Assembly: GCA_000739535.1 (NCBI GenBank)
Contig: DF820478.1
Location: 1-64,000 of the forward strand
Source: Candidatus Vecturithrix granuli
GTDB lineage: Bacteria; Moduliflexota; Moduliflexia; Moduliflexales; Moduliflexaceae
DNA length: 64,000 nucleotides
Direction: 5' to 3'
The notes under the pieces were generated by a model. That model did not search any database and was not told the origin of the DNA. It was given only the letters and a program-made list of their open reading frames with translations. Positions within the stretch are counted from its first letter, which is position 1; each line of letters starts with the position of its first letter. Positions 5,455 to 61,483 of this stretch are shown here, piece after piece. The position numbers and the translations under genes are program-made.

Positions 5455-5579
5455 AGGGTAGAAGGCAAGGAGCGCAAGGCAAAAGGCAATGGGCAAAGAG
5501 CGAGAAACAAAGGACGAAAAACCTTTCGCCTTTTGCCTTTCAACCTTTGCCTTTTCCCTTTCGCCTCTCGCCCTTCGCC
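5455..5579. repeat. Purine/pyrimidine palindromic repeat between lptE and holA
   Basis: About 60 bases of AAGGCAAAAGG-like purine units followed by about 60 bases of the matching CCTTTTGCC-like pyrimidine units, forming a long imperfect hairpin. It fills the whole gap between two co-directional genes. A related stretch sharing CTTTCGCCTTTTGCC lies inside the kinase gene near 34487-34502. Confidence 0.7.
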
Positions 5580-6101
5580 TTAGAATCCCTCGGTTGATAA
5601 GGTTCGAATTCTTTGCGCCAGTTCCTCAGCTAATTCACGCAAAGCTCTTTCTTCGTTTTCTGTTTCCTGGGTAATATTCACTAAGGGGCCGCCGTCAAAA
5701 TCCTGATCTTCAACCAGCCCCTGAGTTTGCCAGAGGATTTCGCCATTGACCATATCTGTTAATTCAATGTCAACCGTGACATATAATTTATAACTTGCGA
5801 CTTCATTGTTTTCATCATAGGAAGCCACAGTATTGGCGCTATAACCCTTGATCGTGCCTTTTAAGACGGCATCGGCATTTCCTTCGGAGACCAGACGCAC
5901 TTTGCCGCCTTTGACAAATTGTTCGATCACCTGTTGCGTGATGACTTCTTCCACACCCTCTTCCGGTGTCTTATTCACAAATATGGGGATCGCAATGGTT
6001 TTAATATGGTCTGGTAAATTTCCCTGTCCAACCAATCCATATCCACAGCCTGAAATGAGCAAGAGGATCACGCTAAAAATCATCAGGTTTTTTACTGTCA
6101 T
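5580..6101 (-). CDS. lptE: LPS-assembly lipoprotein LptE
   Basis: 173 residues from MTVKNLMIF. A lipoprotein signal peptide ends in the lipobox LISGC, giving an outer-membrane lipoprotein; the following GYGLVGQGNLPDHIKTIAIP is the typical LptE opening. LptE plugs the LptD barrel that exports lipopolysaccharide. The upstream ATG at 6146 would put 15 unneeded residues before the signal peptide. Gene order leuS-lptE-holA supports the call strongly, because sequence alone is weakly conserved. Confidence 0.88.
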   Translation of the reverse strand: MTVKNLMIFSVILLLISGCGYGLVGQGNLPDHIKTIAIPIFVNKTPEEGVEEVITQQVIEQFVKGGKVRLVSEGNADAVLKGTIKGYSANTVASYDENNEVASYKLYVTVDIELTDMVNGEILWQTQGLVEDQDFDGGPLVNITQETENEERALRELAEELAQRIRTLSTEGF

Positions 6102-10316: not shown

Positions 10317-10365
10317 GGAGTGCGAAAGCTTTGCTTTCGCTGCGAAAGCAAAGCTTTCGCACTCC
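10317..10365. repeat. 49-base perfect palindrome (family A)
   Basis: Two perfect 24-base arms beginning GGAGTGCGAAAGC around a single central T, immediately upstream of the cyclase ribosome-binding site. The same architecture appears at 39070 (degenerate) and at 60499 inside a kinase gene. Confidence 0.85.
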
Positions 10366-11215: not shown

Positions 11216-11534
11216 GGAGTAAGAAGTAAGGAATAAGAAGTGAGGAGTAAGAAGGAAGAAACGAATATAGTGATCCTAAATCATTGGTGTCCTGTCACTT
11301 CGACTTCGCTCAGTGACCGGGTGGTTGTCGAGCAGTGACCGGGTGGTTGTCGAGCAGTGACCGGGTGGTTGTCGAGCAGTGACCGGGTAGTTGTCGAGCA
11401 GTGACCGGATGGTTGTCGAGCGAAGTCGAGACATGAATGACTGAGGATGTCTATAGTAAGTAGTAATTGGTTTTCGGTAAAGAAGTTCTCTTCCTCCTCC
11501 TTACTTCATACTCCTTACTCCCTACTCCCTACTG
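11212..11534. repeat. Nested repeat island with 22-bp tandem repeat
   Basis: Outer arms are GAGGAGTAAGAAGTAAGG-like (11214-11260) and the complementary CCTTACTCCCTACTCCC (about 11500-11533). Inside are the CTTCGACTTCGCT / CGAGCGAAGTCGAG arms of family B (11297-11430). Between these sit five tandem copies of CAGTGACCGGGTGGTTGTCGAG at 11311-11420, with only a few substitutions. The island fills the gap between the cyclase gene and the hydroxylase subunits. Confidence 0.85.
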
Positions 11535-22245: not shown

Positions 22246-22269
22246 CCAGGATAGAGCGTGATGTAGGTA

Positions 22270-22312
22270 TAGTTAACAATTGACAATTGATAATTGTTAA
22301 TTGTCAATTTAT
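22270..22312. repeat. AATTGACAATT palindrome
   Basis: AT-rich inverted repeat (AATTGACAATT and AATTGTCAATT around about 11 bases) after the AAA ATPase. It may act as a weak terminator. Confidence 0.5.
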
Positions 22313-22327
22313 ATCGGAAAAAGAATC

Positions 22328-23215: not shown

Positions 23216-23228
23216 CTAAGATGTTATT

Positions 23229-23417
23229 GCCCACGAAACACACGGAAAGACACGGAAAAGATGGAAAAGTCGGAAAAGTCGGAAAAGTTAGAAACACAAC
23301 AGCGGATGAAAGAATAGAACGGATCAGGTCGTGATACATGGAAAATTTCATCCGTTCCTTTCCCAAATTCGTTGTAGTGTTTATGCCTTTTTCGCGTATT
23401 TCGTGTGTTTCGCGGGC
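23229..23417. repeat. Composite nested palindrome (family D)
   Basis: Outer arms GCCCACGAAACACACGG and its near complement TTTCGTGTGTTTCGCGGGC enclose inner arms built on AACGGATGAAA and TTCATCCGTTCC with AATTCGTTGTAGTG. A second copy is at 25642-25809. It occupies the whole gap between the DUF4384 and OmpA genes. Confidence 0.8.
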
Positions 23418-25641: not shown

Positions 25642-25809
25642 GTCCACGAAACACGCAGAAAGACACGAAAAAGATAAACACTACAACGAATTTGAGAAAG
25701 GAACGGATGAGATTTTCTACGTATCACGACCGAATCCGTTCTATTCTTTCATTCGTTGTTGTGATACGAATCTCAAAAATTTCCGTGTCTTTCCGTGTGT
25801 TTCGTGGGC
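25642..25809. repeat. Composite nested palindrome (family D) inside the liv operon
   Basis: Outer arms GTCCACGAAACACGC and GTGTTTCGTGGGC enclose inner arms ACTACAACGAATTTGAGAAA and a TTCATTCGTTGTTGTGAT counterpart. Same organisation as 23229-23417. Separates livG from livF. Confidence 0.8.
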
Positions 25810-25814
25810 AAATC

Positions 25815-26570: not shown

Positions 26571-26830
26571 TCTCGCGCAAAGACGCAAAGGCGCAAAGTT
26601 TTCTTATAGTGTTTTTTATTCTTTCAACACTAAGTGATTATAAATAATTTTTTTCAGTTTCTCGCAAAGCCCGCAAAGCTCGCAAAGAATGGATATTCAA
26701 AGGCTTTGCGTCTTTGCGGACTTTGCGAGAGAAATCAAACATGAATTATTCATACTTACTTACAACGAATTTGAGAATGGAACGGATTATACAGTTCGTT
26801 ATCCGTTTAATTCTCAAATCCGTTGTAGTG
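26571..26830. repeat. Repeat block between livM and livG (families E and K)
   Basis: Contains TCGCGCAAAGACGCAAAGG (26572-), an AGTGATTATAAATAATTT arm (26632-), the CTCGCAAAGCCCGCAAAG / CTTTGCGGACTTTGCGAG hairpin (26661-26733), and a K palindrome, TACAACGAATTTGAGAATGG with its complement, at 26761-26827. Bases 26831-26927 hold nothing recognisable. This explains the 369-base gap in the operon. Confidence 0.8.
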
Positions 26831-33514: not shown

Positions 33515-35770
33515 CTATAAAAAGTGTTGTAAAAATTGCTGCATTTCAAGAATCTGGAGCTTTTGGGCAAAACGTTGGACTCGCGTAATAAAGGCGTCAC
33601 ATTGCGGCGCCTTTTGATGAAGTTCCTGAAGCCGCGCACGAATGCTCATCACGTCGCCAATCAACGCGAGTTGGTACAACTGCGCCACGTCTTCACCATC
33701 GGGCGCAGCGATGAACGCGTTGGTACTTTCTTTTTCATCAGGATTGGCAGGTTCTTCCTCTGATATTTTATACGTCCATTCGATTTGTAAACAGGTTTGG
33801 AGCAGGTCGAGTAATTGTTTTCTATCAATCGGCTTTGCCAGAAATGCCTGACATCCGACTTCAAGACTTTGTCCTTTTGTGTGTTCGTATGCGCTGGTTG
33901 AAATCGCAATCAGAATAGTATGTTGCAATTTCTGATGCTGACGAAGTCGGCGGGCCAGTTCAAAGCTGTCTATCTGAGACATCATGACATCGAGCAGAAT
34001 AACGTCCGGGGAGAAAGCCAGCGCTTTATCATAAGCCTCTTGCCCACTGCCGGACTCAGCAATTTGAAACCCCAGAGGAACCAGCATATCACGCAGAATA
34101 AGTCGATTATCCGCCTTATCATCAACAATCAGAATGGTTTTTTCGACTCCTTTATAGCCGATAATCTCACGTGATTGATAGGGTTCAATTTCTAAAGACT
34201 CATCTATATCGTGAAAATCAAGGTCAAACCAGAAGGTACTGCCCTTGCCTGGAGTACTTTCAACGTGAATATCGCTACCCATCAAACGGATAAGATGATA
34301 GCTGATTGCCAGCCCCAGGCCAGTGCCTTCGTGTTGAAAGCGTGCGTCACTCACTTGTTGAAAGGGTTGAAAAATCTGTTGCAGATGCTCGGAAGCAATT
34401 CCGATCCCCGTGTCTGTGACTTCGAATCGAATATGGCGAAGGTCGCGAAAGGCGTCTTCCCCTTTCGCTTCTCCTGTCGCCTTTTGTCTTTCGCCTTTTG
34501 CCGTAACGCGAAGCGTGACACTGCCCTGTTCAGTAAATTTGATGGCATTACTCAATAAATTCAGGAGAACCTGTCGTAAGCGTTTTTCGTCGACATAGAC
34601 ATAGCGAGGTGTATCAGGGCTTTTTTCATAAACCAGACTGATCCCTTTCTGTTCAGCGCGAATGCGTGTTATGTCAAGCACCGTATTGAGTAAGTAGGCT
34701 AAGGAGACTTTCGACGAATTGAATTCGATCTTTCCGGCTTCGATTTTCGAAAGATCCAGAATGTCATTGATCATATCTAACAAATGCTGGCCGCTACGAT
34801 AGATCACGTCAATGCCGTGCTGTTGTCGCTCTGTTAGATTGTGATCGTAGCGAAGAATCTGAGCATAACCTAAAATGCCATTGAGAGGGGTACGGAGTTC
34901 ATGGCTCATATTCGCAAGAAACTCGCTTTTGGCCTTATTGGCTCCATCAGCCGCTTCTTTCGCATCTTGCAAATTCTTCTCTTTCAACGTCAGTTCCCGG
35001 AAAATAAGATCATAGGGCCGGATGATGCCGGTTTGAATAATGGCTTTATAAATTAAATAGAACGAAAAGATTTTAAAATAGTGCCCGGCAAGGTTTGCAA
35101 AGCCATAGTTACTAATATACAGCGTAAAGGAAAACTCTGAGATTATGGTAAAGATCAACGACCAGATTAAAGCTGTATAAACATCCGTTTCAAAGCGTTC
35201 GCGGTGTTTGGATAAAATCCACACATCAACCAGCAGAATGCTGCAAATAATGTATTCGCTCACGATTTTAAAGGACGTCTGCCCAACATCTGCAATAAAA
35301 CAGATCGGAAACACTTTCCAGGTAAAGATCGTCATGACCAGTACGGTCGTGAGCAGGGTATAGACGAGAAATTGCAGTTGGATATTCAAGGGTTTTCGGA
35401 CATGAAAGAACACAAATGCGATTAACAAGGACAGGCTTTCAAGATAGCGCGCCGCAATCCAGAGTTGGTTGGCGTAAAAATCATAATCCGTAAAAATTGC
35501 CATCCCCTTGTACGAAATTGTATGGAGCAAATCTAGACTGGCGATAAACAAATAGGCGATGGCAATAAACATCAGGTAATGATTTTGGATGTATTTTCTG
35601 GAATTCCAGGCGATCATGAACATCGCATAGATCACAACGATGCTGAACAGTTCCGCAAGCGTGTGGAATAAGAGATAATTATAGAGACTGCTCAGATACA
35701 GCCCTACAAGAATGAGCATCCCTAAGAAAACATTCAGCAATTTTTCAGCAATGATACCTGTGTTTTTCAT
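33515..35770 (-). CDS. Hybrid histidine kinase with N-terminal MASE3-like membrane domain
   Basis: 751 residues. Residues 1-260 form about eight membrane segments of the MASE3 type ([35 protein letters not shown]). HisKA follows with [18 protein letters not shown], then HATPase ([25 protein letters not shown]), a REC domain ([10 protein letters not shown]) and an HPt-like C-terminus. Residues about 422-444 ([13 protein letters not shown]) are an extra loop in the HATPase encoded by a repeat-like segment. GGGGAAGAG precedes the ATG. Confidence 0.9.
34440..34505. repeat. Repeat-like insertion inside the MASE3 kinase gene
   Basis: Pyrimidine-rich stretch with CTTTCGCCTTTTGCC, shared with the repeat at 5455-5579, located in frame in the HATPase loop before [10 protein letters not shown]. 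The sister kinase at 32028 has only about 15 residues between the matching strands; here there are about 33. Confidence 0.6.
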
Positions 35771-39052: not shown

Positions 39053-39069
39053 ATTCACCTCAGCGTTCG

Positions 39070-39117
39070 GGAGTGCAAAAGCTCTGCTTTTGCCATGAAG
39101 CATGGCTTTTGCACTCC
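39070..39117. repeat. 48-base family A palindrome, degenerate copy
   Basis: GGAGTGCAAAAGCTCTGCTT at the left and GGCTTTTGCACTCC at the right, with several mismatches near the centre. It lies between the methyltransferase and iolC, just upstream of the iolC ribosome-binding site, as the 10317 copy does for the cyclase gene. Confidence 0.8.
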
Positions 39118-41252: not shown

Positions 41253-41338
41253 TTTCTCTCGCAAAGCCCTTGAAGATGAATTCTTTGCGAGCTTTGCGGA
41301 CTTTGCGAGAAACTAAAAAAAATTATTGATAATCGCTT
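41253..41338. repeat. CTCGCAAAG hairpin (family E)
   Basis: TCTCTCGCAAAGCCC and GGACTTTGCGAGAAA form a hairpin, followed by AATTATTGATAATCGCTTA, the complement of the AT-rich arm at 26632. Fills the gap between the phosphohexomutase and mazG. Confidence 0.75.
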
Positions 41339-41342
41339 ATGT

Positions 41343-57286: not shown

Positions 57287-57355
57287 TTTTTCAAGTGTTG
57301 TCTGACTGACGCCAGAGTGCAAACGTCAGATTGCCAACAGCCTGAAAGTGGGACT

Positions 57356-60300
57356 ATGAACATATCAAATTTATTGGGGTCAATACTGGCAGCATATAAA
57401 TTTATGAAAAGATATCCCATTATTCTTACGCATAGAATGGCTTCTATTATCGTCATGCTTTTGCTCTTTCCCTCAGCGATTCAAGCCGGGGAACCCGAGA
57501 TGAAATTCGATCATGTGTTGAATTTGGGGTCGCGCCACACCCAGGTAATGCTTCAAGATCGAGAAGGGTTTCTGTGGTTTGGCTCCGCAGGCGGGGGAGT
57601 CTTTCGCTATGATGCGTATGAGTTGAAACGCTATGGCAGCGGGCAGGATTTGCTTTCGAATGGATTTGTGTATGGTCTTGTTGAAGATGCCCAAGAACCT
57701 TTCGTGCTATGGATCGGCACCAAAGAAGGATTGAACTGGTTTGATCGCAAAACAGGCATATTTACGTATTATAAACATCAACCTGGCAATCCGGCAAGCT
57801 TGAGTCATAATGCGATTAATGATATAGTGCAGGATAGCCGTGATCCACACATTCTCTGGATTGGAACCGAGGGAGGGTTGAACAAATTTGATACCCGGAC
57901 AGAAATTTTTATCTCTTACCATCATGACCCACAAAATGACCAGAGCCTTAGTCATAATGCGGTCTGGAGAATTCTTCAGGATCGTAAAAATCCTGATATT
58001 CTCTGGTTAGGAACCTGGGGCGGCGGGTTGAACAAATTTGATACACGCACGGAACGCTTTATCCACTATCGTCATAATCCTGAAGATGAGACAAGCCTTG
58101 GGGCGTCGAATGAGATTATTGACGCTCTTGCTCAGGATAAGGATGATCCTGACATCCTCTGGATTGGCTGGCATGAAGGACTTGACCAATTTGACACGCG
58201 CTCCGAAACTTTTACGCATTATCGGCATGATCCGCACAATCCAAAGAGTCTGCCGGAAGGACTTGTGGCGTTAATTTATGATGATGGCTATGGACGCCTC
58301 TGGTTAGGAGGCTGGGAGGATGATAATGGCTTAACGATTTTTGACAAGCAGACGCATACCGGCACCAATTATCGCCATGATCCCCACAATCCCCATAGCC
58401 TCAGCGATAATTTAGTGGTTGATGTGTACGAGGATCGCTCCGGAATCTTCTGGATTACGATGGCCTCAGGCAAAGTTGATAAATATGATCCCTGGAATCA
58501 GAATTTTACGACCTATGCCTATGATCAGCAAAATCCGTCTAGTTTGAGTCATAACACGATCACGGCGTTGTATGAAGATCGACAGGGAACCGTGTGGGTG
58601 GGAACACTCTCCGGGTTGAATCGGTTTGATCCTAATACCGACACCTTTACGCGTTATACGAAAACCCCGGAAACTCCGGATTCACTTGATAACAATCGCA
58701 TTCAAACTATTTTCGAAGATCACTCTGGGCATTTTTGGGTCTCTTTTTTTCCTGGTTCCCTTGTAGAATTTGACAGACAGACAGAGAAGGTCATTCGTCG
58801 CTATACTAATGCCGAAGTGTTTACCAGTATAATTGATGATCCTCATGATCCTGAAAATCTTTGGATCGGGATGCGTCCGCAAGGGTTAGCCCGTTTTCAT
58901 AAACCAACAGAAACCTTTACAGTGTACGATCCTTCGCCACAAGATTCCCAAGATGGCGTGACTTATGGACCCATTTACAAAATTCTCCATGATCGAGATG
59001 ATGAGGTGATCTGGCTTGGCGGCTGGGAAGGGGGAGGATTGCGCAAATTTGAGAAACAGACACAGACATTTACCACATATATCGCTGATCCTCAGAAACC
59101 AACGAGCCTTACGGCCAATTCCATTGCCGCATTGTATCAGGATAGGCAGGGTAGGCTCTGGATCGGAACCCTGGGAGGAGGATTGTGTACCTTTCATAAA
59201 GAGAGCGAAACCTTTACGTGTTATGCTTCAAATCAGAAAATACCAACAAATATCAATGGGATCCTGGAAGATGAGGAGGCGAATCTCTGGTTAAGTACGG
59301 ATCTGGGGATTGTGAAATTCAACCCGAGCACAGAAACAGTCGAAAAGCATTATCGCCAAAGCGATGGTTTGCAGGGCGATATGTTCTTTCGAGACAGCAC
59401 TTGCAAGACATCTACCGGAGAATTGTGGTTTGGCGGAATGAATGGCGTGAACCGGTTTCATCCGAAGCACCTAGTAGAAAATCCGCATGTTCCCCCTGTA
59501 GTTCTCACTTCGCTGGCCCAGGCAGGAGAGCACATCTGCCCTGTGGCCTGCGAGTCCACCCCAGCGATCTCCCTGGACTGGCGGCACAATTTTTTTGAAT
59601 TTGAGTTTGTCGCGCTTAACTATACTCGTCCCCAAAACAACCAGTATGCCTATATGTTGGAGGGGGTGGATCAGGAGTGGTTCTATTCCGGTCAAAAACG
59701 CTTCGGACGTTATACCAATCTTGCGCCAGGTACATATACCCTCAAGCTTAAAGCGGCCAATAACAATGGCGTCTGGAATGAACAGGGTACCTCTGTGCAG
59801 ATTACCATTATTCCTCCCTTTTGGGCCACCTGGTGGTTTCGCAGTCTATTGGGCTTCAGCATAGTGGGATTGGTGTTTGGCGGCTTTTGGCTGCGTATCA
59901 AAACCATTGAAAAGCAGAAGCGACTCTTAGCCGCGCAAGTTGCTGAACGTACAAAAGCCCTGTCAGAGCGAACCGATGAATTAGCGCATTCAAATACGGA
60001 ACTTCAAAAAGCCAAAGAACAAGCAGAAGTCGCAAACAAGGCCAAGAGTACCTTTCTGGCAAACATGAGTCATGAACTGCGCACGCCGCTCAATGCCATT
60101 CTGGGGTTTTCACAACTCATGCAGCATGATCCGGCGTTATCTTCAGAACATCGAAACGATCTCAAGATCATTGTCCGCAATGGCGACCACCTGCTGACCT
60201 TGATCAATCAACTGCTGGATATCTCGAAAATTGAAGCCGGCCGCATGACCGTGAATACAACGAACTTTGATATGTATACGCTGTTAGATGAAACCGAAAA

Positions 60301-61483
60301 CATGTTTCGATTGCTAGCCAGAGAAAAACAGATCCATCTTGTGTTTGAAAGGACTCCGGATCTGCCCCGATATATCTGTACCGATGTGGTCAAACTCCGT
60401 CAAATCCTGTTCAATTTGCTCAATAACGCCATCAAATTTACGAAAGAAGGGGGCGTGGCCGTGAGAATAAGAAGTAAAGAAGTCACAGATACAGATCTGG
60501 AGTGCAAAAGCTCTGCTTTTGCAGCAAAAGCAGAGCTTTTGCACTCCGATTCCTTACTCCATCTTGAAATTGAAGATACGGGACCTGGCATCACTCCGCA
60601 AGAGTTAGAATACGTTTTTCAGGCATTCACCCAGACAGAAGCCGGACGGAAGACTCAGGAAGGAACAGGGTTAGGATTAGCAATCAGCCGTAATTTTGTC
60701 GAATTATTAGGAGGGGAGTTACATGTCCAAAGCGAAGTCGGACGCGGAAGTCTTTTTAGCTTGACGATTCCGGTGCAGCGGGTGCATGCTTCTGACCTTG
60801 CAGCAAAATCTCCCACGCGCCGGGTCATCGGACTGGTGTCTGGCCAACCGCATTATCGGATTCTGGTGGTTGATGATAAACAGGATAACCGCTATTTGTT
60901 AATGCGCTTATTGACGCCATTGGGTTTTGATGTACGCGAGGCCAATAATGGCCAGGAAGCCATTACCATCTGGCAAGAATGGCAGCCGAATCTGATCTGG
61001 ATGGATATGCGTATGCCCGTGTTAGATGGCTACAAAGCCACGGAACAGATCAAGGCCACGATGCAAGGTCAGGCCACGGCGATTATTGCCCTCACAGCGA
61101 GCGCCTTTGAAGAAGAGAAAGCCGTGGTGCTCTCGGCCGGCTGCGACGATTTTCTGCGAAAACCGTTTAAAGAAACTGAAATTTTTGACTTGATGCAGAA
61201 ACATTTAGGCGTACAGTATCTCTATAAGGACATGCAGCCCGGCGAAGACGTTGGGGAAGAGAAGCCTTTATTCTCGACGATTGATGTGGCTGCCCTGACT
61301 ACGATACCGACGGAATTACGACAGCGACTCGAACATAGCGTATTAATAGCTGACGTTTCCGGAATTACGGAAATGATCCAGGAAATTTTTGCCTATGATG
61401 CCACACTCGGACAAACGCTGGAGCATCTGGCCGAAGATTTTAAATACAGCCATATCCTGGAAGCCTTGCAAAAGATCACCTAA
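57356..61483 (+). CDS. One-protein two-component hybrid with beta-propeller sensor
   Basis: About 1375 residues. A signal segment ([17 protein letters not shown]) leads into two periplasmic seven-bladed propellers of Reg_prop repeats (many LWIGTxGGLNKFD units), then a Y_Y_Y domain ([16 protein letters not shown]), a membrane helix ([18 protein letters not shown]), HisKA ([18 protein letters not shown]), HATPase, REC ([13 protein letters not shown]) and a helical tail. Members from Bacteroidetes sense polysaccharides and end in an AraC domain; this one has no DNA-binding domain. Residues about 1048-1065 are a translated family A palindrome. Start is uncertain: GTG 57317 or ATG 57404 are alternatives. 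Confidence 0.92.
60499..60547. repeat. 49-base perfect palindrome (family A) inside the hybrid kinase gene
   Basis: Two perfect 24-base arms (GGAGTGCAAAAGCTCTGC...) around one A. Same design as the intergenic copy at 10317. It is translated in frame in the HATPase loop ([16 protein letters not shown]). GAT occurs two bases before it and directly after it, so a 54-base, 18-codon insertion with a 3-base target repeat is possible. Confidence 0.9.

Follow-up and report, generated by a model that had tools for sequence, protein, structure and literature searches.

Why two histidine kinases encoded in one stretch of bacterial DNA should carry unrelated repeats in the same loop of their HATPase domains is the question that this locus raises. 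The window, that is, the whole stretch of 64,000 nucleotides analysed here, codes for a MASE3-HisKA-HATPase-REC hybrid kinase (33515-35770, minus strand) and for a Reg_prop/Y_Y_Y-HisKA-HATPase-REC hybrid kinase (57317-61483, plus strand), both assigned by profile matches. The HisKA, HATPase and receiver domains of the two proteins score above curated cut-offs, and the catalytic motifs are intact in both.

Two repeats in the HATPase loops of the window kinases

A Pfam search identified the MASE3 domain of the first kinase at E=1.4e-84 and placed HATPase_c at residues 394-519. The loop of this kinase comprises residues 423-445, flanked on one side by VTLRV (34505-34519) and on the other by the peptide coded at 34406-34435. 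The first-pass annotation had located a repeat between VTLRV and that peptide, at 34440-34505; the position proved exact, with the array reaching slightly further, to 34435. This insert is an inverted heptad array of 68 nt (34435-34502, minus strand) whose coding strand starts with the units GGCAAAA, GGCGAAA, GACAAAA and GGCGACA and continues with more purine units before returning through a pyrimidine arm (CGCCTTTCGCGACCTTCGCC). The loop DNA matches itself at 23 of 35 positions under a lag of 7 and folds into a hairpin with a z of -4.4, none of 200 shuffles being equally stable. Used as a lone BLAST query against the genome, the loop returned weak matches (best non-self E 0.95) because its heptads are degenerate. 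The case for a repeat in this kinase rests on periodicity, hairpin anatomy and a common 15-mer, not on BLAST. The 15-mer, CTTTCGCCTTTTGCC, lies at 34488-34502 (plus strand) within the loop and again at 5523-5537 within an intergenic array, and it has four exact copies in the 8.38 Mb genome, while its reversed control has none. The sharing of sequence between the loop and the repeat at 5455-5579, already noticed by the first-pass annotation, is thereby borne out.

That intergenic array (5455-5588) is itself an inverted heptad array, a purine arm followed by a pyrimidine arm, with a folding z of -3.1. Together with arrays at L261 and L267 it forms the intergenic relatives of the MASE3 array, each pairing a purine heptad arm with its complement; folding is strong at L261 (z -6.3) and not significant at L267 (z -0.9). 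A further intergenic array at 22258-22326 has the consensus unit AATTATC, in common with a kinase-loop array at L213:2719-2765, and a comparison of units revealed that loop arrays and distant intergenic arrays have heptad units in common. These arrays are tandem 7-base units dispersed between genes, periodic at lag 7 only and with no signal at lag 5. They carry many unit types, and a single dominant TAACTGA unit was not encountered among them, so we file them as heptad arrays in general and not as TAACTGA repeats. The arrays form a DNA hairpin in the MASE3 and L213 loops. A DNA hairpin in every repeat loop is ruled out, the arrays of L198 and L202 being plain direct ones.

The second window kinase carries an unrelated element in the corresponding beta-hairpin, as had been proposed. 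This is a family A palindrome of 49 bp (60499-60547), which departs from its own reverse complement at one position, has a folding z of -10.5, contains no stop in any of the six frames and is translated. It has at least 94 match rows genome-wide, with both strands counted and 40 of 277 first-look candidates scored. Within the window, a second copy with 24-bp arms that are 100% complementary lies at 10317-10365 and is likewise free of stops in six frames, and the window repeat search detected a further copy at 39067-39117. Hence, one HATPase loop holds two unrelated elements, a heptad array in the MASE3 kinase and a family A palindrome in the hybrid kinase. Other repeats are also present in the window. 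A 22-bp unit, CAGTGACCGGGTGGTTGTCGAG, occurs five times in tandem at 11284-11421, adjoining another dispersed repeat family. Two short ORFs lie between long inverted repeats at 23227-23384 and 25674-25811, some 2.3 kb from each other (97 nt at 89%, 32 nt at 100%); the whole may represent a composite mobile unit. An inverted 80-nt pair (26631-26710 and 41260-41339) is 90% complementary across 14.5 kb.

Structural models place both inserts in the protein. The MASE3 catalytic region was modelled at a mean pLDDT of 88.8, with the insert lying between strands 154-162 and 182-190 at pLDDT 57-68, and in the hybrid kinase model the part coded by the palindrome forms two short helices at pLDDT of about 78-87. 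Since the model places the loop between strands and the modelled fold matches known kinases (GacS 7z8n, RetS 6dk7 and HK853), the insert is predicted to be an exposed extension of the hairpin that joins the N box to the G1 box (DxGxG).

Repeat-bearing loops in this genome and in others

The genome (G000; 8.38 Mb in 21 contigs) has at least 152 HATPase_c matches, and we sampled 89 stretches, each of up to 20 kb, spanning the 150 HATPase matches listed. The organism may belong to candidate phylum KSB3, whose members are described as filamentous, with genomes above 7 Mb and many two-component genes. Loops were measured from KFT to DxG in 141 of 159 domain rows, the 18 that lacked an anchor residue being dropped, and these correspond to 137 distinct hairpins. 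Their length has a median of 23, a 90th percentile of 38 and a maximum of 62 aa, and 38 of the 137 reach at least 28 aa. We then mapped repeat-derived residues over the HATPase genes, the check that the first-pass annotation had suggested, with two strict criteria: at least three matches in an intergenic-repeat test, or a lag-7 test at threshold 21. Repeat-derived DNA was found in 12 of the 137 hairpins, all of them among the 38 long loops. Besides the two window kinases, these are the loops of L142, L147, L154, L163, L198, L202, L206 (16312), L213 (two kinases) and L219. A thirteenth loop, L206 (13159), is family-A-like, with 18 matches in the first similarity test, and the remaining 25 of the 38 long loops contain no repeat by the strict tests. 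Among the translated repeats in long loops, ECQSSALARQCYQECQSSALARQC corresponds to three family A copies, SNQYSGTSNQHSISSEQGTTDHCLLNTEHCLL to heptads and LPLLKGEGEQELPSPRRRGAGGEV to another dispersed repeat.

The first similarity test compared loops with all non-kinase DNA and was rejected, as 190 of 760 random segments from the same kinases matched at E 0.01 against 12 of the 38 long loops. Relatives of the receiver and PAS-like domains in other genes account for these matches, and the target was restricted to intergenic DNA instead. The resulting test set 1,361 genes (1.584 Mb), called by a simple longest-ORF script and not by a gene finder, against 231 kb of intergenic DNA. After exclusion of 108 of 142 gene repeat segments for their closeness to a gene end (60 nt or less), 34 internal segments with at least three intergenic relatives were left. 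Five of these fall in HATPase loops, which make up 10.9 kb or 0.69% of the coding DNA, none in the remaining 269.5 kb of the same kinase genes and 29 in other genes (1,304 kb). By this test, repeats within the kinases are restricted to the loop, and the excess over its coding share has a binomial p of 3.7e-6. The 29 include genuine insertions in large enzymes, namely a DEAD/MZB helicase, an SNF2 helicase, a ketosynthase/FabA megasynthase and a type ISP restriction enzyme, along with short ORFs whose status as genes is uncertain. At L178:12035-20000 and L161:10633-17889, helicases and the ketosynthase/FabA megasynthase contain in-frame translated copies of family A or other repeats.

A similar picture emerged from periodicity. 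At a threshold of at least 22 of 35 lag-7 matches, 14 array segments lie inside genes, of which 8 are in HATPase loops, 4 elsewhere in HATPase genes and 2 in other genes, although the loops represent only about 0.7% of the sampled coding DNA; outside gene interiors, the same threshold yields 40 intergenic and 11 gene-edge segments. Lags of 5, 8, 10, 11 and 13 give no segment in loops. Counted by loop, 7 of 137 reach 22 matches and 9 reach 21, and the double period, lag 14, gives 4 and 7, respectively. Resampling of synonymous codons with the peptide kept produced a mean of 0.6 loops and a maximum of 3 in 200 trials, compared with the 7 observed. Array density amounts to 7 per 10.9 kb in loops (0.64/kb) against 40 per 230.9 kb in intergenic DNA (0.17/kb). 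DNA hairpins are in excess as well: the own long loops fold with a z below -2.5 in 8 of 38 cases, compared with 3 of 152 for segments of equal length from these genes and none of 55 for foreign long loops (Fisher p 1.4e-4 against same-gene segments and 4.8e-4 against foreign loops).

Two of the four kinase arrays outside HATPase loops belong to a single receiver-domain loop of L213. There, a second and different heptad array (L213:13262-13361, plus strand) precedes the IIALTA strand, in a kinase that also has an array in its HATPase loop. Linkers between HATPase and REC, which are probably tolerant too, carry arrays in 0 of 19 cases and the loops of the same hybrids in 3 of 19, a small sample (p 0.23) which, because of that low count, does not separate permissiveness from targeting.

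For comparison, 200 foreign loops were measured alike, drawn from genomes of the same family or order (G001-G003), from G050, G027, G031 and G055, and from 80 named contigs. Among loops of at least 28 aa, heptads at threshold 21 are present in 9 of 38 own and 0 of 67 foreign loops (p 5e-5), and at threshold 22 in 7 of 38 own long loops (p 6e-4 against foreign). One short loop (L056) of the 200 passes the heptad threshold. Arrays do exist abroad, as the stretches fetched from G050 and G002/3 hold 15 and 10 array segments, but none in loops. Long loops are also common in other genomes: 27 of 39 in G050, where the median is 31 and the maximum 55 aa, while the 80-locus control has a median of 23 and a 90th percentile of 28. 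Loop length alone was therefore rejected as a sign of insertion. Length tolerance of the hairpin is a general trait of the family, shared by other genomes; what is unusual here is not a long hairpin but its filling by dispersed repeats. A loop similar to that of the MASE3 kinase in other phyla, the counter-evidence named by the first-pass annotation, was looked for and not encountered. None of the 200 foreign loops has more than 4 consecutive residues in common with the insert, and a MASE3-type relative in G027 (38% identity over 11-513) has an unrelated loop of 26 aa. The motif KGERQK is common to the MASE3 loop and that of one other kinase of this genome (L194).

Phylogeny indicates that the inserts have several origins. 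We built a tree from 221 of 270 collected HisKA-HATPase domains, selected for sufficient length and an identifiable HisKA motif, omitting the middle of the loop. L194, which is below the lag-7 threshold, was marked by eye for its KGERQK, and L154 was dropped because its upstream part was too short. No fewer than 11 changes are required to account for the 13 marked kinases on this tree, several of whose deep branches are weakly supported (0-57), and three to account for its three family A kinases; the inserts therefore arose repeatedly. Close relatives illustrate this. Neighbouring kinases at L142:10512-14209 have near-identical flanks, and one carries three tandem family A units where the other has an unrelated 43-aa loop (SH-aLRT 99). 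Similarly, L198 has a heptad loop of 37 aa and its G001 relative one of 27 aa (SH-aLRT 99).

Proposed origin and retention of the repeats

The explanation that we favour, with a probability of roughly two in three, is that dispersed repeats entered the DNA of the HATPase hairpin tip again and again and that in-frame copies survive there. Inverted arrays of degenerate heptamers, the family A palindrome and at least one further repeat rich in G+C would have entered the DNA coding for the tip, between the N box and the G1 box. Repeats would enter genes at many places, the hairpin tip being, in kinases, where in-frame copies persist. Inserts would survive at this point because the tip is solvent-exposed and length-tolerant on the catalytic domain, because family A and the loop array copies are open in the frame that they occupy, and because only lengths of 3n are kept. 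The outcome would be a kinase family that displays translated repeats as hairpin loops. The copies probably came from elsewhere instead of growing on the spot, a view for which the evidence is strongest in family A, MASE3 and L213, and selection, not site recognition, would have chosen the location. Several observations count against this explanation. The higher array density in loops than in intergenic DNA is not what neutral survival alone predicts, and in several loops the heptad phase extends into conserved-strand codons, a pattern expected of local growth. Nor did we see a target-site duplication or, in a near-identical strain, an empty site.

Local growth would need nothing from outside, given that strand codons already contain heptamer doublets (LQFSI, coded by TTCAATTTTCAATT) that could seed slippage or template switching. 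TTCAAT-type heptamers occupy the strand-2 codons of 6 of 38 own long loops and of 1 of 67 foreign ones, which suggests the strand itself as a possible origin of some arrays, and both the continuation of the heptad phase into the strand in L147, L154 and L206 and the density of loop arrays fit this route. Nevertheless, the strand-codon excess could itself result from the spread of arrays. On inspection, the units of MASE3 (GGCAAAA) and L213 (TCAGTAT type) and the family A sequence are unlike their own strand codons, units recur in distant intergenic arrays, with the MASE3 15-mer at four places, and simple slippage would not give inverted second arms. Altogether, we regard local growth as an unlikely source of the loop repeats. 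The presence of at least three unrelated kinds of repeat in one loop, their density above that of intergenic DNA and their absence from the rest of the kinase genes in the intergenic-relative test would also suit a transposase or a reverse-transcription route that recognises the hairpin-coding DNA or an RNA stem, making the loop a true target. We consider this very unlikely, as no common target sequence or duplication was identified, duplications having been looked for unsystematically, and family A and other repeats also lie inside helicases, a polyketide/PUFA-type synthase, the type ISP restriction enzyme and more, and one heptad array inside the receiver-domain loop of L213.

It could also be argued that the hairpin is an ordinary hypervariable loop whose low-complexity peptides look repeat-like by chance. 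The hairpin is indeed long and variable in other genomes such as G050, and in the first similarity test random segments of the same kinases matched as often as long loops, but those matches reflect domains in common. For the 12 strict loops, synonymous resampling, the wrong-lag controls, the foreign loops and the intergenic-only test all contradict this idea, which we find scarcely credible. An ordinary hypervariable nature may well apply to the other 26 long loops.

What the first-pass annotation had proposed is partly supported. Its repeated landing site stands as a recurrent one, given 12 of 38 long loops, 5 segments against 0 in the rest of the kinase genes, and the tree; targeted landing is unsupported, because survival after random insertion and local growth of heptads also explain the data. 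That the loop tolerates insertions agrees with this recurrence, and the tolerance of length extends to other genomes, whose loops reach 55 aa. A further reading is that dispersed repeats supply the raw material for diversifying more than 150 HATPase proteins, with arrays preferentially extending the hairpin strands and being retained above the intergenic rate to give paralogue-specific docking or regulatory loops. Taken together with its components, a beta-prone translation of the heptads and a DNA hairpin that codes for a protein hairpin, we deem this reading unlikely. Our evidence extends to the position and recurrence of the loop repeats, and function is beyond its reach. Even so, the kinase loops constitute a natural insertion experiment, replicated many times, that shows where a working enzyme absorbs selfish or slippage-born DNA. 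They make testable the old question of whether coding repeats are merely tolerated or co-opted, and they suggest that the HATPase hairpin is suited to domain-insertion engineering of sensor kinases.

Comparison with known repeat systems

A close precedent is provided by the Rickettsia palindromic elements (RPE), palindromic short repeats that occur between genes and also in frame within conserved protein genes (Ogata et al. 2000; reviewed in PMC2229807). According to that review, they measure 105-146 bp and are described in 19 reading frames of many unrelated proteins, and a gmk with an RPE insert is translated and active with altered substrate affinity. Family A resembles these protein-coding palindromes, as far as they are described there, in being palindromic, dispersed in the genome and located inside conserved genes with the frame kept. 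Unlike them, the repeats reported here, heptad arrays and a palindrome of 49 bp, come together in a single loop of one paralogous family. We know of no sequence relation of the family A palindrome or the heptad arrays to the RPE, and at 49 bp the palindrome is shorter. Folding also revealed inverted arms in the repeats when they were compared with MITEs.

In cyanobacteria, heptad repeats of the STRR type are reported to lie within RNase P RNA genes (Vioque 1997). These share with our arrays the location of heptads within a functional gene, but they differ in that the site is an RNA gene and not a recurrent position in a protein family. Direct repeats of the TAACTGA heptamer form dispersed intergenic arrays in filamentous bacteria with large genomes, and they are found in Beggiatoaceae, Cyanobacteria and Bacteroidetes (PMC4679880). 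The author of that study considered that modular proteins might tolerate such heptamers and predicted that arrays, when translated, would take on antiparallel beta structure. The arrays of this genome are likewise heptamers dispersed between genes; unlike the TAACTGA repeats, as presented in that study, they comprise many degenerate units, frequently have an inverted second arm and show a preferred coding position.

In the accessible portions of the literature on repeats in histidine kinase loops and on coding heptamers, we found no report of a recurrent loop. In-frame coding repeats were already known from the RPE of Rickettsia, and, within the literature searched, their recurrent arrival in a single loop across a paralogous family appears to be new. 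The loops themselves resemble the HATPase beta-hairpins of other histidine kinases in being long and variable. What distinguishes the long loops of this genome from those hairpins is the presence of heptads and the excess of DNA hairpins, which were seen in 0 of 67 and 0 of 55 foreign long loops, respectively.
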